A stretch of 64,000 nt of DNA from Pseudoalteromonas lipolytica (GTDB lineage: Bacteria > Pseudomonadota > Gammaproteobacteria > Enterobacterales > Alteromonadaceae), in NCBI RefSeq assembly GCF_001306915.1, contig NZ_LJTC01000003.1, forward strand, positions 62,001 through 126,000, given 5' to 3'. Both the position numbers and the translations under genes were made by a program. The notes under the pieces were generated by a model. The model made no database searches and was not told the DNA's origin. It saw nothing but the letters and a program-made list of their open reading frames with translations. Of the stretch, positions 2,318 through 46,000 are shown piece after piece; within the stretch, counting starts at the first letter, position 1; each line of letters opens with the position of its first letter.

Positions 2318-4900
<2,583 letters not shown>

Positions 4901-35715: not shown

Positions 35716-36726
35716 ATGAAAGCTGCAGTAAATAAAGAGTACAAAGGTAAATTAACAATCGAAGATATCCCATGCCCAGAGGTGGGAATTAACGATGTGC
35801 TAGTTAAAATTGCCGCGTGTGGAGTGTGCCACACAGATTTACATGCTTGTCATGGAGATTGGCCAGTTAAACCCAAAATGCCATTAGTGCCGGGCCATGA
35901 AGGGGTAGGTACTATCGAAAAAGTAGGCGCAAACATTAAACACTTATCAGTAGGCGACCGTGTCGGTGTTCCTTGGTTGTATAGCGCCTGTGGTCATTGT
36001 GAGTTTTGTTTAGAGGGCAAAGAAACCTTATGCCTTGAGCAGCACAACACTGGGTATTCAGTTGATGGAGGTTACGCCGAGTACTGTGTAGCCCATGGCG
36101 ATTACGTGGTTAAAATTCCTGAAGGATTAGGCTTTTCAGAAGCCGCACCACTATTTTGTGCGGGTGTTACTACCTATAAAGCGCTTAAAGTGACTGATGC
36201 AAAAGCGGGTGATTGGGTGGCAATTGTCGGTGTTGGCGGCCTTGGCCATTTAGCAGTGCAGTACGCAAAAGCAATGGGCTTTAATGTAATTGCCGTTGAT
36301 ACCGGCGAGAGCAAGTTGGCCCTAGCTAAAGAGCTTGGCGCAGACATTACTATAGATTTTATGAAGCAAGTACCTTCAGAAACCATTTTTGAACAAGTGG
36401 GCGGAGCACATGGTGTTGTGTGTACTGCTGTTTCAAAACCCGGTTTTGAGCAAGCCTATAAAAGCGTTCGCCGTGGCGGTAAATGCGTGCTTGTAGGTTT
36501 ACCACCCGAAGATATGCCATTGCCAATTTTCGACACCGTATTAAATGGTGTGTCTGTTGTAGGCTCAATCGTTGGTACGCGTAAAGACTTACAAGAATGC
36601 CTCGACTTTGCAGCAAAAGGGAAAGTTAAAGCCATTATTGAAGAAAAACGCCTAGAAGATATCAACGATATTTTTGACGATATGCTAAAAGGCGACATCA
36701 CTGGTCGAATCGTGATGACGCTTTAA
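35716..36726 (+). CDS. adhP: Zinc-dependent alcohol dehydrogenase AdhP
   Basis: A cytoplasmic NAD-dependent alcohol dehydrogenase interconverting ethanol or propanol and aldehydes. Its 336 residues equal the length of E. coli AdhP. Catalytic zinc ligands are C38, H61 (with E62) and C148. The structural zinc is held by C92, C95, C98 and C106. The NAD fold motif is [18 protein letters not shown] ribosome site precedes the ATG. The last 30 codons recur as a diverged copy at 37851-37942, described separately. Confidence 0.94.
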
Positions 36727-36747
36727 ACTGAGTTAGTTGATGCAATG

Positions 36748-36791
36748 CTGTCAGGTTTGATTGAGTGATTCAATTGAATCTGACAGTTTTT
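36748..36791 (+). terminator. Rho-independent terminator after adhP
   Basis: A long stem with outer arms CTGTCAG/CTGACAG (36748-36754 and 36780-36786) continues inward with mostly paired bases around a GTGA loop, and is followed by five Ts. Confidence 0.85.
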
Positions 36792-37016
36792 CATATGCTA
36801 AAAAGCAGCGTGTTGTAATTCGTTATTACTTCAATACATGCTTAAGCGAATTTATCAAAAGAGCGAATTCGGCCGTTCACAATTGCATTTCTATTTCGTC
36901 AAAGTTTATTACTGCATAGTCAGAAAACGACCCTATCGTTCATTATTGTCCTAGGACAAAAGCTAGAACCACTGCATTTTCGTTGTATTGGCAATTAGTT
37001 TAGAAGTTTGTTACAA

Positions 37017-37574
37017 ATGAGTCATTCAGAAAGCGAGTATTCGCTCGCTATATACAAATTATACAACACTTTAATCACTAGTATGAATCAAATTCTTAAA
37101 TATTTAGCTCTACTCGTAAGTACATTAAGTTTAGTGAGTTTGTTCCAACAGTTTTTTACGGTTGGTCTTTCAGAAGTGTTCTCAAGTATCTTGGTGTATT
37201 ATAGGTTAGTTGTATCAGGAGTATTTAAAATCTTTAGTATTGATGTGCCTCAAATTCTTTTGGATTTATGGACACTCTCTTTCATCACTTCGGCCGCATA
37301 CATTAGAACTGAGAATATAGAAAACAGCCGCTTGCTTCATAAAATAGATACAACTTCGCTATATAAGCACTGGAAGATAATTTACTTTTTTATCCTAGGT
37401 TTTTTTTTCATAGGACTAGCAATTTTGTTCTCAATGTTAACCCCCCAAACCTACGTTGACGAAATGAATGAGTCACCTAACGACCTTATAAAAGGAGCTG
37501 TTTTAAACTTAATTTTAGTTGTTTGTGCTTTAGTGTTATTTTTCGGAATGAATGCTTATGCACCATCTTTGTAA
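37017..37574 (+). CDS. Membrane protein of unknown function, four predicted spans
   Basis: I do not recognise this protein of about 185 residues. Four hydrophobic stretches are visible (about 24-48, 65-90, 123-145 and 160-180). The ATG at 37017 is preferred; an in-frame TTG lies 9 bases upstream. Codon use is AT-richer than adhP. It lies between adhP and the chimeric scar. A structured sequence that could be a decayed attC-like site starts right after the stop codon, so the gene may have arrived as a cassette. Confidence 0.6.
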   Translation: MSHSESEYSLAIYKLYNTLITSMNQILKYLALLVSTLSLVSLFQQFFTVGLSEVFSSILVYYRLVVSGVFKIFSIDVPQILLDLWTLSFITSAAYIRTENIENSRLLHKIDTTSLYKHWKIIYFFILGFFFIGLAILFSMLTPQTYVDEMNESPNDLIKGAVLNLILVVCALVLFFGMNAYAPSL

Positions 37575-37758
37575 GTGTTGTATAATAATCGCATTAAAGG
37601 GGGACGCAAAAATTTTGGTTGCGCTCATATTTCGCTTTATGCACCACTTATGCGGTCGTTAATGCCGTCTAATTTTTGCACAAAACTTACCTTCATCTCT
37701 GAAGCATTTTTTCCAAAAACGAACTACCAATAAAACTCGCTCTCACTAAACAAAAAAA

Positions 37759-37855
37759 GTGTGTAGCTGAAGGTTAATTTAGCATTACGCTTTTCTCCTA
37801 GCATACCGCATAAGAACATTACTTTTGAGTAATAGTTTTTGTTAAACAAATTATT
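37759..37855 (-). pseudogene. Remnant of the 3' end of the siderophore-receptor gene
   Basis: These 97 bases align without gaps to 39074-39170, the last codons of the TonB siderophore-receptor gene, with 8 mismatches (about 92% identical). The copy reads on the same strand as the parent. The stop codon is lost, and five of the changes alter the amino acid (T to N, A to V, G to C, P to L, E to K). No start exists, so it is not expressible as a receptor. Confidence 0.9.
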
Positions 37856-37942
37856 AAAGAAAAACGCCTAGAAGATATCAACGATATATTTAACGACATG
37901 TTAAAAAGCTATATCACAGGCCTTATTGTGATGACTCTTTGA
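37851..37942 (+). pseudogene. Remnant of the 3' end of adhP
   Basis: These 92 bases align without gaps to 36635-36726, the last 30 codons of adhP with its stop, with 15 mismatches (about 84% identical). The adhP frame is preserved to the stop; the changes include E to K, D to N, G to S, D to Y and R to L. It joins the receptor remnant at a shared TTATT, which is present in both parents. Only the tail of the gene remains. Confidence 0.9.
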
Positions 37943-38373
37943 GTTGATTCAGTTAATTTGTTTAATTATTTTGGCTGATATTTACTTTGATGTGTAAAAA
38001 ATATAATTGCTTATCTAGATAAGTTTAGGTGTAATGGGAACTAAAAATACGCTGAGCAATACAGGGAAAGCTGAAACAAAAGCTAAGCTAAAGCCACTAA
38101 AAATCAAATTCCCATAGCAAAAATATCCCCAACTCTGATACATCGGGCAGATATTAGCGAAGCCCAAAGCTATTATGCAACAAAAACTGTGATTCGTATA
38201 ATCTCTATAGTGTTGCCATACAAAGTAGGAATAGTGGCAATCGGATCTCAGTTATTTCATAGTCCAATGTAGTTACTAAATGTTTAGGTTGGTGGCTCTA
38301 AAAGCTAAATACGGCGTTATGTCTATCATTTTAAAAACAATACTCTTAGTAAAAAAAGGAATTACTTCAAATT

Positions 38374-38943
38374 ATGAAAAAAATTATGATTATTACATCG
38401 TTATTGCTAAGTGGCTGTGCAGCACAACCGATACAATATGATTTAGATGGTAATTACACCGGTAGCCCAATTAACATAAATAAAAATATCCCTAAAATTA
38501 GTATTAATAATTTTACTTATGAACCTCATCGGAATATCAGCCAATATGCTACATCAGGGTTTGGCTGTGCACTTTGTCAATCTGACGGGAGTTGGAGAGG
38601 GTATGTTTTTCAGCAGCCTGTAAAAGATATTATTCAAGCTGAAGTTGAATTAGCCTTCAAAGAAGTTTCAGCAGGTAAATCAAATGGAACATGTGAGTTG
38701 AACGGCCAAATACACGCTGTTGGTTGGAATAGTATTAATGGTGATACAACAGTTGATATTACTTACATATTAAAAATAGGAGAGTCATCTGAATATGTTA
38801 AAAGAGCAAAAGGCTTATATGACGGTGGCATTTTTGAAATACAAAAACTAGAAAAAATTTGGGATAAGCCTACGAGAGCCTCTGTTCAAGAATTAGTTTG
38901 GGATAAAAATTTTGTTGAGTTATTACATAACAAGTGCACGTAA
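38374..38943 (+). CDS. Lipoprotein of unknown function
   Basis: A 189-residue lipoprotein with lipobox LLSGC (cysteine near residue 15), so it is anchored in the membrane after export. The mature part begins AAQPIQYDLDGNY. It has a cysteine pair (GFGCALC) and a later pair (C at GTCELNG and at NKCT). No family is recognised. The start ATG has AAAAAAAGGAATTACTTC upstream. It is AT-rich like other orphan genes in this block. Confidence 0.7.
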   Translation: MKKIMIITSLLLSGCAAQPIQYDLDGNYTGSPININKNIPKISINNFTYEPHRNISQYATSGFGCALCQSDGSWRGYVFQQPVKDIIQAEVELAFKEVSAGKSNGTCELNGQIHAVGWNSINGDTTVDITYILKIGESSEYVKRAKGLYDGGIFEIQKLEKIWDKPTRASVQELVWDKNFVELLHNKCT

Positions 38944-39021
38944 GTCTGACTCGACAGAATAAGTTATTTAGCTTAGGACGAGGCTAGATCATCTTATGTT
39001 TAATATCAAAAATCTAAACAA

Positions 39022-39053
39022 AAAAAGCGCGGCTTAACTAAGCCGCGCTTTTT
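39022..39053. terminator. Bidirectional terminator between the lipoprotein and siderophore receptor genes
   Basis: A long stem AAAAAGCGCGGCTTA/TAAGCCGCGCTTTTT, with A and T runs at both sides, serves both convergent genes. Confidence 0.9.
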
Positions 39054-39068
39054 GCTATTAATTCACAA

Positions 39069-41477
39069 TTAAAGTGTGTAGCTAAAGGTTAATTTAGCAT
39101 TACGCTCTTCTCCTGGCATGCCGCCTAAGAACATTGCTTTTGAGTAATAGGTTTTGTTAAACAAGTTATTTAGGTTTAACTGTAGTTTCCAATCATCTGT
39201 TTGGTATTGAATGGCGGCGTCGTAAACCGTGTAGCTAGGTACGTAGCCATCAGGTATACCAAACGAGGTTGAGTTTGTGCTGCGGTCATCAACATATTGT
39301 ACGCCTGCGCTAATTGTCAGTGGCTCGGCTAAATCAAACCATTTAGCGTCATAGCTTAACCAGCTGCTTGCTGTTACATAAGGCACACCTTTTTGGCGAG
39401 TATCGAAAGATGATGAGTTAGGGTTTTTCTTATCGCGAGCGTCTTGATACACCGCGTTTACGTTAAGTTTCCACTGCTCGTTTAAATCGGCATTTAAATC
39501 AAGCTCAACACCTTTGGTTTGCTCTTCACCATCGTAAAAGCTTTTTGGTACTGAGGCATCAGATACACCGGCTTCGTACTCTGGGTTGGCATACTCAAGG
39601 TTGGTACGGGCACTATCAAATACCACAAGTGATGCCAGTAGTTGATCGTCAAAGGCTTTTACACGCATACCAATGTCGTTACTGACTGACTCGGCGTCAT
39701 CGCGGTCTGCTTCGTTACCCGATACACTACCAAGTACGCTGTAGGCTGTGCGGCCTTTAGAGTGGTTTACAAAGAACGAAATATCATCGCTAAGTTTATA
39801 AGTTGCACCTAGGTTATAGGTCATACCGCTGTCTGATGTATCTGCTTCTGGCGTTGGCTCGGCGGCACTAGCGCGGTAGCGCGCATCAACACCAAAGTGT
39901 TCGTAGCTTTGTTTAATACGGTTAAACGCAACACCTACACGGGTTGTGAAAGTGTCGTGAATATAGGCAACATGTTGAATACCCACACCCCAAGCTTGAA
40001 CCTTTTTGTTGTAATCGCTGGTTTTTAGCGGGTCGTAGTCGTAAAAGCTGCCTTCGCCCCAGTTCGGGTTACGAATATCAAAAATGTAAGGTAATTGACC
40101 TTGGTAAATAACCTCTCCATCTTTGTTTTTAATGACCTTGTCGGCATCGTAAATTGAGTATTGTTTAAAACGAATATCGCGGTCTTCGTAGTTGGCGTTT
40201 ACAAGTAGTTCGTTATCGATTCCGGCAAAGCTAAAGTCATAACGCAAGTCTGCAAAGTATTGCCATGATTTTTCGTCAGCTTCTACTTGGCGGTACTCTT
40301 GGCGACGCGCTGCAAATGGGTAAAGTACGTCATCAACCACTAAAGGAGCGCGCGGGTCGGCATTGATCACGCCATTACGGTTCCAATAAACATAGTTATA
40401 AGCACCCGTTTGGCGGGCAAAGCTCGATTCGTAATTACGATATTGTAATTGCTGATTTAAAAATAAATTATCAGTAATAAAGTAGTTATGAGTTAACTTA
40501 AAGCGCAGCTCTTCGCCTTCGTTATCATTTGCCATCGGCGAGATAATACCGTTATGACCAAAGGTGTAAGGAGTTAAGCCATCATTTGCTGCCAGTGAGC
40601 CAGCTAATTGTTGGCGTTGCTGTTCGGTTAGTTGCAGGCCTTGTGCAGTTGCGTCGTTAATTAAATCGGCGGCGGTTACTTCACCTGCGGTTTTGCCATT
40701 CACTGAGTCGCTGTTAAAAATACGAATAGGGTGGCCAATTGAGTCAACGGCAATGGCATCTTTAATATAAGCGGCAGAAATCATGATGTCTTGTTTGTCG
40801 CTTAATACGTATTTTAACGCGCCATAAATTTCATCACGGTCGTCTTTTAAGTCGCGGTAGCCATCGCTGCGAGCGGTTTTTGCGTTAACGCGATAAGCAA
40901 GGTTGTCGGTTAATGCTGCTGTGCTATCAAAGCCTAATGAGTAGCTATCCCATTGACCAAGCTCAGCATTTACCGTGTGTTTTTCAGTAAATTGCGGTTT
41001 CTTCTCGATTAGGTTGATAACACCACCTGCGCTACCCATACCATATAAACCTGTTGCAGGGCCTTTAAGTACTTCTACAGATTCAACATTGGTCATTGAG
41101 CGTGTAGGGTTAAAGGTGTTACCTAGGCCTGCACCGCCATACATGCCATCGTAAGTATAGTTAGCGCCTAAACCGCGGATCACTAAGTTATCACCAATAC
41201 CGTAGTTGTTACCGGCTTGGGTTACACCACTGATGTTACGCACTAAGTCTTGTAAGTTAGTTGCGCCTTGCGAGTTGATAAGCTCTTGATCAACAACTAC
41301 AACAGGTGCAGGTGTTTCCATTAGGGTCATATTTGACTTTGTGGCAAGGCCAGATTCAAGTACCACACGGTTTTGTTTGTCGTAAACGGTAATACGTTCA
41401 ACTGAGTCTAAATCGCTGGCGTTTGCATTGAATGCGCTTAAGCAGGCTAGGGCTAAAATTGAATATTTATATGTCAT
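39069..41477 (-). CDS. TonB-dependent siderophore receptor
   Basis: An outer-membrane receptor of about 802 residues importing a ferric siderophore. I place the start at ATG 41477, where a normal signal peptide (MTYKYSILALACLSAFNANA) begins; an in-frame ATG at 41531 adds 18 residues before it and overlaps a likely operator. The plug has VVVVDQELINSQGATNLQDL, GDNLVIRGLG and VEVLKGPATGLYGMGSAGG, typical of the siderophore-receptor group. The barrel ends in an aromatic-hydrophobic strand (LTFSYTL). A Fur-like dyad lies 31-55 bases upstream. Confidence 0.9.
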   Translation of the reverse strand: MTYKYSILALACLSAFNANASDLDSVERITVYDKQNRVVLESGLATKSNMTLMETPAPVVVVDQELINSQGATNLQDLVRNISGVTQAGNNYGIGDNLVIRGLGANYTYDGMYGGAGLGNTFNPTRSMTNVESVEVLKGPATGLYGMGSAGGVINLIEKKPQFTEKHTVNAELGQWDSYSLGFDSTAALTDNLAYRVNAKTARSDGYRDLKDDRDEIYGALKYVLSDKQDIMISAAYIKDAIAVDSIGHPIRIFNSDSVNGKTAGEVTAADLINDATAQGLQLTEQQRQQLAGSLAANDGLTPYTFGHNGIISPMANDNEGEELRFKLTHNYFITDNLFLNQQLQYRNYESSFARQTGAYNYVYWNRNGVINADPRAPLVVDDVLYPFAARRQEYRQVEADEKSWQYFADLRYDFSFAGIDNELLVNANYEDRDIRFKQYSIYDADKVIKNKDGEVIYQGQLPYIFDIRNPNWGEGSFYDYDPLKTSDYNKKVQAWGVGIQHVAYIHDTFTTRVGVAFNRIKQSYEHFGVDARYRASAAEPTPEADTSDSGMTYNLGATYKLSDDISFFVNHSKGRTAYSVLGSVSGNEADRDDAESVSNDIGMRVKAFDDQLLASLVVFDSARTNLEYANPEYEAGVSDASVPKSFYDGEEQTKGVELDLNADLNEQWKLNVNAVYQDARDKKNPNSSSFDTRQKGVPYVTASSWLSYDAKWFDLAEPLTISAGVQYVDDRSTNSTSFGIPDGYVPSYTVYDAAIQYQTDDWKLQLNLNNLFNKTYYSKAMFLGGMPGEERNAKLTFSYTL

Positions 41478-41507
41478 GATTATAGGTAATTGTCGAAATT
41501 TTTCGGC

Positions 41508-41532
41508 AATGATAATGCGAGACATTTTCATT
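41508..41532. promoter_or_regulatory. Fur-box-like inverted repeat upstream of the siderophore receptor
   Basis: The arms AATGATAATG (41508-41517) and CATTTTCATT (41523-41532) pair in 9 of 10 positions around a 5-base spacer. AATGATAAT matches the Fur half-site. It lies just upstream of the preferred receptor start, on the right side for a repressor site. The spacing is not the textbook 19-bp Fur box, so confidence is moderate. Confidence 0.5.
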
Positions 41533-41674
41533 TCAAGTTTTATTTAACCATTATGAGTATTTTTTTAACCTAGATACATTTTTTTAACGGGTGTGTTTTT
41601 TGTTGGTAAATTTGTTTTCAAAATGGTTACATGAGGTGTGGTTGGCTTTGCAAGTGCAAAGCCAACATTGTGGC

Positions 41675-42943
41675 TTATTTAAAAACTTTACCGTCTTTCA
41701 TTACAAATTGTACATCTTCAAGTACTGCAATGTTTTCAAGCGGGTTGCCTTTAACGGCGATAATATCGGCTAAGAAACCGTTTTTGATTTGCCCAAGTTG
41801 ATTATCAGCTTTAAGTAGTTTGGCACTATTGATGGTGGCAGACTGCAAGGCTTGCAGCGGTGTCATACCAAATTCAATCATACGCGAAAACTGCTTTGCG
41901 TTATCGCCATGAGGGTAAATCGCTGCATCGGTACCAAATACCATGTTTACGCCTGCTTTTACTGCGCGGCTAAAGCTATCGCGTTGCTTTTTAGATACTT
42001 GGCGCTCTTTGTTGAGGTTTTCTTCTGCAACCCCATTTTGTTCACCAAAGGCAAGGGTGTACTCAGTGTTGTAAATATCCATTGAGAACCAAGTGCCGTG
42101 TTTTTTAGCCAGTTTAATGGCTTCGTTATCGACAAAACTAACATGCTCAACACTGTCTACACCGGCAACAATGGCCGCTTTAATACCACTGGTACCGTGC
42201 GCATGGGCTGCAACGGTTAGGCCACGTAAATGAGCTTCGTCAACAATGGCATTCATTTCGTCTTGGCTATATTGTTGAATACCGACTTTTGTGCCTTTTG
42301 AAAATACCCCGCCTGTAGCGCAAAACTTAATGGCATTAGCACCGTACTTAATGTTTTCCCGTACTTTAGCGCGCACTGCCCATGGTCCATCAGCAACACC
42401 TTCGGCGGTGTATTTCATTTCTGGTGGTAAACGGTTGTTATCACAGTGACCGCCAGTAACACCTAAAGACGGGCCAGCCGCCCAAATACGCGGGCCAACA
42501 ATATCGCCTGCATTAATGCCATCGCGTACTGCAATCACGCTGTAGCCTTCTGCGCCTAAGTTACGCAGCGTTGTAAAACCTGCATACAGTGTTTTTTCGG
42601 CAAAGTGTGCCGCTTTAATTGCTTTACGCGGAATCGATTGACCAATTCGCTCACTGCGCGGTACGGTAGGATCGCTCGTTAAATGCACATGCATATCCAT
42701 TAAACCCGGCAGCAAAGTCAGTTCTGGTAATTGAATGTGCTTATCGCCGTCTTTTAAGTTTGGCTGTTTATTGCTTTGCACAGCTGTAATTTGACCATTA
42801 TCTATACTAATGAGTGGTGATTTAATCAGTTTACCTGAATTTACATCTACCATGGCTTTTGCCGATAAGTAGGTTGTTGCGTAGGTATTTAAAGGGGTTA
42901 GGCAAGCTAGGCCTAGGCTAATAGCAAGAGCTGTCTTTTTCAT
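41675..42943 (-). CDS. Secreted metal-dependent amidohydrolase (prolidase/imidazolonepropionase-like)
   Basis: A 422-residue enzyme of the amidohydrolase superfamily. A signal peptide ends near TYA. The metal-binding HVH is at H85 and H87 (MDMHVHLTSD). AIKFCATGG provides the lysine region, and AHAHGTSGIKAA and VEHVSF the next two histidines. GTDAAIYPHG holds the final aspartate. Family members act on Xaa-Pro or Xaa-Arg/Lys dipeptides, which would fit this protease-rich genome; the substrate is inferred. Confidence 0.85.
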   Translation of the reverse strand: MKKTALAISLGLACLTPLNTYATTYLSAKAMVDVNSGKLIKSPLISIDNGQITAVQSNKQPNLKDGDKHIQLPELTLLPGLMDMHVHLTSDPTVPRSERIGQSIPRKAIKAAHFAEKTLYAGFTTLRNLGAEGYSVIAVRDGINAGDIVGPRIWAAGPSLGVTGGHCDNNRLPPEMKYTAEGVADGPWAVRAKVRENIKYGANAIKFCATGGVFSKGTKVGIQQYSQDEMNAIVDEAHLRGLTVAAHAHGTSGIKAAIVAGVDSVEHVSFVDNEAIKLAKKHGTWFSMDIYNTEYTLAFGEQNGVAEENLNKERQVSKKQRDSFSRAVKAGVNMVFGTDAAIYPHGDNAKQFSRMIEFGMTPLQALQSATINSAKLLKADNQLGQIKNGFLADIIAVKGNPLENIAVLEDVQFVMKDGKVFK

Positions 42944-43090
42944 TTTTATTCAAAATTGGTAAGTCGAGCCGCCACTCTAGCAATCAGCTTACAAAGTGTA
43001 AATAAACTGCGATAAGTTGCAGCGATACTTGCTAAATAGGGAACTAAACCCTCATAATTTACGCGTACTTAATATAAGGGCAGGGAAAGA

Positions 43091-44914
43091 ATGAAAAACG
43101 TAAAACTAGCACTACTTAGTTCGGCAGTGATGTTTGCATTACTTGGTTGTAATGAATCAACGCCAAGCAACGAAAAAACAACGCAGGCAGTAAGCAAACA
43201 AGCACCAAGCGCAACGTCAGCCACAGAGCAACTTGATACATTACTAGCAGATTACTTTGAAGCAGGCTTAAAGTTTAGCCCTGTTAGCGGCACTTACATT
43301 GGCCGTAGTGAATTTAACGATCAATTTATTGCACCCATTAGTAAAGCCAACCGCGACGAGCGGCTTAATTTTGTTAAAGAATACCAAACTAAATTAGCAA
43401 ATATCGACAAAGCGCAATTAAAGGGTCAGTCATTATTGAGCTACGAAATTCTAGCTCGCGATTTAGACCTTGCGATTGAAGGTGCTCAATTTCCAAGTTA
43501 CTTAATGCCAATTAATCAAATGGGCGGGGCGCACAATACCTTTGCTGCGTTAGGCTCTGGGCAAAGTGCACAGCCTTTTAACACGGTTGAAGATTATCAA
43601 GCATTTGAAAAACGTGCTGACGGTTTTATCGCGTGGTTAGACAGTGTTGAGCAATCAATGCGCCAAGGCATGAAAGACAAAGTGGTTCTTCCTAAACCGC
43701 TTGCTGAAAAACTATTACCGCAATTTCAAACTCATATTGTAGAAAAACCAGAAGAGTCATTATTCTGGGGGCCAATTGCTCAGTTACCTGAATCTTTCAG
43801 CGACGAGCAAAAAGCACAGCTAACAAGCGCGTACACGGCGATGATCAGCGAACGTTTAGTGCCTGCGTATCAAAAAATGGCTGACTTTTTAGCGAATGAA
43901 TACATTCCAAATGCCCGTGAAAGCATTGGTTACAGCGACCTACCAAATGGTAAAGCATGGTATGAGTATCAAATTAAACAGCATACAACGCTTAGCCTAA
44001 ACGCCGATGAAATTCATGACATTGGTTTAAACGAAGTATCGCGCATTTTATCTGAGATGAAAAAAGTCAAAGAGGCTGTTGGTTTTGAAGGCGATTTAAA
44101 AGCGTTTTTTGAACACCTAAGAACTTCAGATGAGTTTTACTACGATACGCCAGAAGAGCTAATTGCCGCGTACGAAGCAGTAAAAGAAAAGATTGATGCT
44201 AAGCTGCCGCAAATGTTCGATATTGCGCCAAAAGCGCCATACGTTGTAAAAGCAGTTGAAGATTTCCGCGCTGAATCTGCTGCAGGTGCATCTTATCAGT
44301 CGCCAGCACCAGATGGCTCACGCCCAGGTATTTTCTATATCAATACCTTTAATCTAAAAGCACAGCCTAAGTTTTTACTTGAAACCTTGTCTATTCACGA
44401 AGCGGCACCGGGTCACCATTTTCAAATTGCCTTGCAACAAGAAATTGAAGGATTACCACTATTCCGTAAATTCGGTGGCTACACGGTATTTGCAGAAGGT
44501 TGGGCATTGTATGCAGAAAGCTTAGGAAAAGAGCTTGGCTTATTTACCGACCCTTACATGTGGTACGGCCGTTTATCAGATGAGCAATTACGTGCAATGC
44601 GCTTAGTGCTTGATACTGGTTTCCACGCAAAAGGCTGGACACGTCAACAAGGTATTGATTACATGTTGGCTAACTCATCAATGGCCGAAAGTGACATTAT
44701 CGCCGAAGTTGAGCGTTATATCGCATGGCCGGGCCAAGCGCTGTCGTACAAGTTAGGTCAGTTCAAAATTCAAGAACTACGTGACTACGCGAGCAAAGAG
44801 TTAGGCGATAAGTTCGATATTAAAGCTTTCCATACGCAAGTGCTAATTGATGGCGCATTACCGATGCCGATTCTTGAAGAGAAAATTAAGCGTTGGGTTA
44901 ACGAGCAAAAATAG
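43091..44914 (+). CDS. DUF885 family lipoprotein peptidase
   Basis: A 607-residue exported lipoprotein of the DUF885 group, putative metal-dependent carboxypeptidases. The lipobox is LLGC, with the cysteine near residue 20. The metal motif is HEAAPGHH (H436, E437 and H442), with the family's FAEGWALYAE and later YIAWPGQALSYKLG. It starts divergently from the amidohydrolase, and both may digest peptides outside the cytoplasm. Confidence 0.88.
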   Translation: MKNVKLALLSSAVMFALLGCNESTPSNEKTTQAVSKQAPSATSATEQLDTLLADYFEAGLKFSPVSGTYIGRSEFNDQFIAPISKANRDERLNFVKEYQTKLANIDKAQLKGQSLLSYEILARDLDLAIEGAQFPSYLMPINQMGGAHNTFAALGSGQSAQPFNTVEDYQAFEKRADGFIAWLDSVEQSMRQGMKDKVVLPKPLAEKLLPQFQTHIVEKPEESLFWGPIAQLPESFSDEQKAQLTSAYTAMISERLVPAYQKMADFLANEYIPNARESIGYSDLPNGKAWYEYQIKQHTTLSLNADEIHDIGLNEVSRILSEMKKVKEAVGFEGDLKAFFEHLRTSDEFYYDTPEELIAAYEAVKEKIDAKLPQMFDIAPKAPYVVKAVEDFRAESAAGASYQSPAPDGSRPGIFYINTFNLKAQPKFLLETLSIHEAAPGHHFQIALQQEIEGLPLFRKFGGYTVFAEGWALYAESLGKELGLFTDPYMWYGRLSDEQLRAMRLVLDTGFHAKGWTRQQGIDYMLANSSMAESDIIAEVERYIAWPGQALSYKLGQFKIQELRDYASKELGDKFDIKAFHTQVLIDGALPMPILEEKIKRWVNEQK

Positions 44915-44978
44915 CACCTTTGCGCGCATGCTGGCTTTACGCTAGAATGCGCGCTGTTTAGGGGCTTTGAGTAATACC

Positions 44979-45476
44979 ATGTTAGAAGATCAATTTTGGC
45001 TTAAGCGCTCGCTTGAGCAAATGTCACAACCCGAATGGGAAGCCATTTGTGACGGCTGTGGTAAATGTTGTTTAAACACGTTTATCGACAGCGAAGACGA
45101 AGATGAATTTACCGCAACGGATCAACTTCGCGAGGGTGAAGAACTCATTTTCACTAATATCGTTTGCCAATACCTAGACAACGACACCTGTGGGTGTAGC
45201 GAATATGCGAACCGCCAAACTTTGGTGCCTTCATGTGTAAAGCTCACTAAAGAAAACCTTAAAGATATCTTTTTTATGCCGCAAAGCTGTAGCTACCGTC
45301 GCCTTTACGAAGGCCGTGGCCTTGCGTCTTGGCACCCGCTACTGAACGGTGGCAGTAAAGATATGATGCATGAGCTGGGTATTTCTGTGCGTGACAAAAC
45401 AGTAAAAGACTGTGATGTAGACCTAGATGATTTTGACCTTTACGTGGCCGAGTGGCCAACCAGAGACATTGATTAA
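44979..45476 (+). CDS. ycgN: YcgN/UPF0260 cysteine-cluster protein
   Basis: A conserved gammaproteobacterial protein of unknown function and about 165 residues. The cysteine cluster CDGCGKCC near the N-terminus, followed by CQYLDNDTCGCSEY, PSCVKL and PQSCSYRRLYEGRGLASWHPL, is typical and probably binds a metal or an Fe-S cluster. The ATG at 44979 is chosen; a TTG at 44967 is in frame, but its AGGGG site is too close. Its stop overlaps the following methyltransferase start by one base (TAATG). Confidence 0.9.
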   Translation: MLEDQFWLKRSLEQMSQPEWEAICDGCGKCCLNTFIDSEDEDEFTATDQLREGEELIFTNIVCQYLDNDTCGCSEYANRQTLVPSCVKLTKENLKDIFFMPQSCSYRRLYEGRGLASWHPLLNGGSKDMMHELGISVRDKTVKDCDVDLDDFDLYVAEWPTRDID

Positions 45477-46000
45477 TGAGCGCCCTTAAAGCAAGCATTG
45501 GCCTGTTAAACCCAAAAAGTCCAACCAATGTGGGTGGCGTACTACGTGCCGCGGGTTGTTACAATGCCAAGCAGGTGTTTTTTACTGGTAGCCGCTATTT
45601 ACGCGCTAATAAGTACCATACTGATACTAAAAATGTGCTTGAGCATATTCCGCTAACGCAAGTTGAAAGCCTAGAGCAAGCAAAGCCTGAAGGTGCCACA
45701 ACTGTGGTGATTGAGCTTGTTGAAGGTGCAACGCCGCTGCCTGAATTTAAGCACCCTGAAAACGCATTTTATGTATTTGGCCCTGAAGATGGCTCGGTGA
45801 GTAAAGACGTGCTGAAATGGTGTGATGAAGTAGTGTATGTGCCAACCATAGGCTGTATGAACCTAGCCGCAACCTGCAATGTTGTGCTGTACGACCGACT
45901 TGCCAAACTCGGTGGTATTGAAAGTTCAAACGACACCATTTGTAATAGTCGAGACACTAACAACTCACTTAAATGGCAACAAAAAAAGAGCGCTAAATAG
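45476..46000 (+). CDS. SPOUT-family RNA 2'-O-methyltransferase (TrmH/SpoU type)
   Basis: A 174-residue knotted SPOUT methyltransferase that uses SAM to methylate ribose in RNA. Motif 1 is NVGGVLRAAGCYN. Motif 2 is VFGPEDGSVSK and motif 3 is IGCMNLAATCNVVLYDRL, which together form the SAM-binding trefoil knot. It is short, close to the TrmL/YibK size, with no extra domain, so the target RNA cannot be assigned. It is coupled to ycgN. Confidence 0.9.
   Translation: MSALKASIGLLNPKSPTNVGGVLRAAGCYNAKQVFFTGSRYLRANKYHTDTKNVLEHIPLTQVESLEQAKPEGATTVVIELVEGATPLPEFKHPENAFYVFGPEDGSVSKDVLKWCDEVVYVPTIGCMNLAATCNVVLYDRLAKLGGIESSNDTICNSRDTNNSLKWQQKKSAK

Follow-up and report, generated by a model that had tools for sequence, protein, structure and literature searches.

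A chimeric scar in Pseudoalteromonas lipolytica as the probable joint of two versions of a gene-insertion slot

When a variable slot gains genes by addition, few marks of the event usually remain, in our view. One described process by which such capture could proceed is homology-facilitated illegitimate recombination, in which foreign DNA is taken up by a homologous crossover at one end and an illegitimate joint at the other, and which is invoked for loci holding alternative segments (PMC2884548). A second paper (PMC3240628) reports that linear DNA can also form a circle and then enter by one crossing-over. Two further structures, the chromosomal integron remnant without an integrase and the remnant of a tandem duplication, share features with the locus described here.

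We analysed a stretch of 64,000 nucleotides from P. lipolytica (hereafter the window), in which convergent adhP and TonB-dependent receptor genes enclose a gap of 2,342 bp (Table 1). Within this gap lies a scar made of a receptor tail and an adhP tail, which we consider, with modest confidence, to be the joint of two different versions of the slot placed head to tail in one chromosome. The scar resembles the product of homology-facilitated illegitimate recombination in having a short-homology joint, TTATT, at one end. In contrast to the cases described in PMC2884548, in which one segment is replaced by another, cargo was added to the host slot and both gene tails were duplicated. That this process acted at the host locus is a proposal, and a donor carrying the second version was not found. 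As in a chromosomal integron remnant that lacks its integrase, the left interval combines an attI remnant with a single cassette and its worn attC, and attC sites also occur in the same slot of relatives; the scar joint differs in that it sits at neither an attI nor an attC crossover. The order of the parts, and the single new joint with short homology, are those of a tandem duplication remnant, but the cargo of the two host copies is unrelated and retains no similarity.

Table 1. Features of the adhP-receptor slot, with positions in the window
Feature	Position	Strand	Basis or remark
adhP, left border of the slot	35716..36726	+	ORF; Pfam ADH_N / ADH_zinc_N
Terminator-like hairpin 3' of adhP	36748..36786	+	By eye, alignment with G023 and G087; scar copy lacks the hairpin
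Integron remnant without intI: flank and attI	36832..37058	+	Ends at attI crossover, G changed to A
Integron cassette with gene X	37059..37658	+	Left end falls on attI crossover
Gene X (163 aa; protein judged hydrophobic by eye)	37083..37574	+	ORF
Worn attC of the X cassette	37581..37665	+	Covariance model R1, E = 1.3e-4 (rough)
Pre-receptor flank of left interval	37713..37758	+	Similarity to relatives
Scar, receptor-tail half	37754..37855	-	Stop codon and terminator deleted
TTATT joint, common to both parents	37851..37855	.	Sequence comparison
Scar, adhP-tail half	37851..37942	+	Frame open, five amino-acid changes relative to host adhP
Worn 3' end of IS91-type element	37992..38214	+	Dispersed repeat
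Gene Y, lipoprotein-like start by eye	38374..38943	+	ORF
Intact receptor terminator hairpin	39022..39053	.	32-bp palindrome
TonB-dependent receptor (right slot border)	39069..41531	-	Pfam Plug, TonB_dep_Rec_b-barrel

The composition of the scar had been described in a sequence-only reading of the window, and our alignments reproduced it. Positions 37759-37855 are identical to 39074-39170 of the receptor gene at 89 of 97 sites and positions 37851-37942 to 36635-36726 of adhP at 77 of 92 sites, both without gaps, and both parents carry TTATT at the joint. The sequence that this reading had seen just before the scar and again beside the receptor, CTAAACAAAAAAAG, indeed occurs at 37746 and 39014 and at no other place on the + strand of the window. 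When the scar was used as a query against the whole genome of the host (4.58 Mb in 68 contigs), only the scar itself and its two parents were returned at E <= 0.001, the parents with E = 6.4e-36 and 3.5e-24, which excludes chance similarity. If the two gene ends were joined at random, at least 5 bp of shared sequence would be expected with P = 0.0057. The loss of the terminator hairpin and stop codon from the receptor half occurred between two AAAG repeats. The scar is clearly a well-preserved fossil of slot growth, that is, dead DNA left by a known kind of genome change; a functional role for the scar itself is not likely.

Compared across genomes, the gap between the convergent adhP and receptor genes behaves as a variable gene-insertion slot in this Pseudoalteromonas group. 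Matches to the scar query were present in 48 of 108 genomes of the genus, the host included (at most seven candidates were scored per genome), and in 22 genomes besides the host, matches to the two halves lay close together on a single contig. Intervals were compared from 20 of these; G049 and G068, whose matches lie ~60-100 bp apart, were left out. The comparison with sister genomes that had been suggested as a check returned a cargo-free gap of 47-128 bp in 10 of the 20 congeners, and a gap of 1,140-4,832 bp in the other 10. Two further named strains have slots of ~1.8 and ~5.9 kb. Cargo differs among the congeners, with much of it in common between G066, G073 and G019. Among 13 long intervals (the host, 10 congeners and the two named strains), an extra receptor tail is present in two and an extra adhP tail in one. 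attC sites were sought with a covariance model, R1, built from 25 attC sites of the genus, the E-values of which are rough. Of the 10 long intervals, 7 contain sites with E < 0.01 in the slot, and the model also finds attC sites in the slots of both named strains; none was found up to E = 1 in the 10 short-interval loci, which leave almost no room for one. The slot of G081 retains a broken intI, and an intI stub was recognised by eye in that of G056. In three named relatives, the region belongs to a plasmid or megaplasmid, according to the labels of the records (0.83-0.90 Mb).

The left interval of the host is an integron remnant with a cassette: attI and attC are present and the integrase gene is absent. 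No intI match is listed in the host slot, and the best intI match of the host is truncated and lies ~120 kb away. Positions 36832-37032 are 84% identical to a stretch of P. donghaensis which, judging from the neighbouring genes, seems to correspond to the locus of the host main integron; no intI is listed beside that stretch, where the gene table is incomplete. Positions 36916-37018 match, and those up to 37058 align with, four attI regions, of which two belong to integrons (the host main integron and G057) and two to remnants in the same slot (G081 and G056). The cassette that follows has a counterpart, 91.6% identical over 580 nt, within an array of several attC sites in G041. Gene X had previously been started at 37017, which was not upheld: its start is probably the ATG at 37083, inside the cassette that begins at 37059. 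No known family was found for its protein. The attC of the cassette, the middle of which is shortened, is the best of four R1 matches in the window, the next having E = 0.1. At the right end of the interval, the stretch just before the scar resembles pre-receptor sequence in G081, G057, G023 and G087, and also the flank before an extra receptor copy in G082.

The right interval begins with a repeat that matches the terminal part of elements encoding Y2_Tnp and is thus an IS91-type end. Copies of this repeat are found in 50 of the 108 genus genomes (E <= 0.001), and the long ones encode Y2_Tnp and Zn_Tnp_IS91, with a tyrosine recombinase upstream. Of 17 aligned element copies, 16 end at GTTR and one at GTTT. 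In the host, the repeat starts 50 bp after the adhP half of the scar; in G023 and G087, it recurs ~110 bp behind the full adhP, with 81% identity over query positions 51-247. Other approximately full-length copies among the matches listed have 65-76% identity. Because the IS91 end is dispersed and partial copies elsewhere reach 86%, its position behind adhP in these relatives is weaker evidence than at first sight. A reading of the repeat as a dispersed orphan attI platform, which had rested on the GTTR ends and on downstream attC sites, was rejected, since the long copies are IS91-type elements. Among the 20 top-listed copies of the repeat, 14 have same-orientation attC matches (E < 0.05) within ~4 kb downstream; at E < 1e-5 such matches lie downstream of seven, and upstream matches accompany one of the 20. 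In G046 the repeat abuts a truncated intI, and it is probably not the own attI of that intI. Gene Y, which follows, was found in none of the other 107 genus genomes and in none of 393 other genomes of an order sample that overlaps the genus set. It was detected neither in plasmids (E <= 0.01) nor in Pfam; six pattern matches in viral contigs yielded no confirmed case, and NCBIfam gave weak matches only, far under the cut-off. A search of 36600-39200 against Rfam gave 11 matches up to E = 1, all under the gathering scores and taken as chance.

From 35716 to 45700 of the window, adjacent stretches differ sharply in how closely they match G082, G081 and G004, with ~85-87% identity in some and ~93-95% in others. 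Between the host and these three genomes, adhP is 84.9-85.7% and the amidohydrolase gene 85.7-87.1% identical, and the receptor, which lies between the two, 93.5-94.6%. Relative to G022, which has a 71-bp slot, all three genes have 83-85% identity. In trees in which several forks are poorly supported, the between-group branch is long for adhP (0.13 + 0.066) and for the amidohydrolase (0.11 + 0.041), shorter for the transglycosylase (0.042) and short for the receptor (0.017). This mosaic between species groups suggests that homologous exchange has acted in the region, and the exchanged parts may be adhP and the amidohydrolase. That the receptor itself had moved between species was considered but not retained, because between-group identity is nearly as high in 43300-45700 (93%) and in the transglycosylase (91-93%).

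The two halves of the scar differ unequally from their parents, a disparity left unexplained by the sequence-only reading and now largely accounted for, on few sites. Relative to the host and 13 relatives, changes found only in the scar number 7 among the 92 sites of the adhP half and 6 among the 97 of the receptor half (37759-37855), or 8 of 97 if 37754-37850 is taken instead, so that 37754-37758 beside the lost terminator is included. From the counts of 7/92 and 6/97, both halves have decayed alike and are of similar age. The adhP half differs from the host tail at 15 of 92 sites and from that of G082, the nearest, at 8, of which 7 are scar-only. Its larger distance from the parent arises because the scar agrees with other species at those sites, and the host adhP tail would be another allele, a reading based on a small number of the 92 sites. 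From the receptor half no such signal emerges: seven real receptor tails, that of the host among them, tie at 8 differences.

In the joining that we favour, version 1 would have consisted of adhP, the attI remnant, the X cassette and the receptor, and version 2 of adhP, the IS91 end, gene Y and the receptor. The joint would lead from within the version 1 receptor tail into the version 2 adhP tail, by way of the 5-bp sequence that these tails share. Incoming homologous DNA may have been attached by one illegitimate short-homology joint and one homologous crossover, or a fragment may have been circularised at TTATT and then integrated by a single crossover; either route would give the identical product, and the scar would then have decayed as non-coding DNA. 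Several observations point to such a joining. The scar has two halves, slot ends stand on both sides of it, the cargo of the two intervals is unrelated, and the halves have decayed similarly. Kin of the parts occur apart, with attI at integron loci, the X cassette in G041 and the IS91 end behind adhP; the slot is variable among congeners, the region is mosaic, and the joint carries a shared sequence improbable at random. Against it, version 2 by itself was found in no genome, and within the genus set Y was found in the host only.

The sequence-only reading had taken the scar for the remnant of a tandem duplication of the host adhP-receptor segment, with breakpoints in both tails. Its account of the part order stood, both sides of the scar look like true slot ends, and gene order and joint are just what a tandem duplication would give; the residual similarity to be expected between the interval interiors did not appear. 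When the alignment suggested as a check was run, the interiors proved unrelated, with a local score of 37 against a shuffle mean of 36.3, and 25 of 60 shuffles scored as high as the real pair; this is the outcome that the reading had itself named as refuting its view. A duplication thus demands that the cargo was later fully replaced in at least one copy. Slot turnover permits such a replacement, and the wide variation of slot cargo makes it plausible; a full replacement would also erase the sign of residual similarity. Nevertheless, the joining of two different versions takes one step and a duplication takes more, and the adhP half of the scar is not nearest to the host adhP. We therefore regard a duplication as unlikely, though worth keeping in view. 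A different route would begin with the IS91-type element. IS91 elements have a habit of read-through and a GTTC-type target. An element behind adhP might, by rolling-circle read-through, have taken the adhP tail along and inserted beside GTTA in the receptor tail. The element end is oriented such that read-through would enter adhP, the break in the receptor copy falls immediately ahead of a GTTA, only 1.6% of tested receptor positions precede GTTR, and the GTTR ends of nearly all aligned element copies fit as well. A simple insertion, however, should leave the remainder of the receptor to the right of the element, where Y and a complete receptor are found instead; since the receptor does not continue beyond the element, we think this route very improbable. 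Hardly any credence can be given to an assembly artefact or chance similarity, for which no support was found: the scar matches its parents with the E-values given above and yet differs from both at many sites, and it lies ~99.7 kb into a contig of 309,832 bp.

A separate question is when the scar formed, and here a second stub in the genus is relevant. The slot of G082, another species, contains a supernumerary receptor tail that together with its flank measures 123 bp and is 92.7% identical to the real one of that genome, and after which no adhP tail was found; at least one such copy has thus arisen or been trimmed in another way. The scar may have formed once in an older lineage and then been inherited or passed between species, with the G082 stub as a trimmed descendant, a possibility that we entertain only tentatively. 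It concerns timing and is compatible with the joining of two versions. The scar and the G082 stub have two G-to-A changes in common that are absent from 38 distinct real receptor tails, and the adhP half of the scar is nearest to the G082 adhP; on the other hand, G082 lacks the adhP half, and the sharing of at least two changes by chance has P = 0.012 under a uniform mutation model, 0.024 if G/C sites are four times as likely to change and 0.064 with G/C sites only, in a test chosen after the data had been seen. With chance at this level, scar and stub may have a common origin. It is rather doubtful, if conceivable, that cargo is added to the slot again and again, carried in on homologous DNA of other species, the receptor tail serving as a docking end that leaves a resident stub each time, and that the host and G082 represent two stages of one event passed between species.

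At this locus the joint can still be read, the two versions are distinguishable and cargo-free relatives exist, so that the gain of a second cargo by the slot is testable. The locus also shows pieces of a chromosomal integron residing in a slot well away from the main integron. The main integron of the host (L148 11294-11860; contig C13, ~219.3 kb) has a truncated integrase, with a frame of 188 aa, and eight attC sites. Across the host genome, where 150 of 2427 candidates were scored, at least 19 attC matches are spread over five places. Within the G081 interval (L046), a 44-bp sequence is present twice, at 2222-2265 and 4824-4866, ending near GTTTTTGTCC. Both copies are placed, by eye, after an attC-like end, and the repeat may be the end of an element or array.
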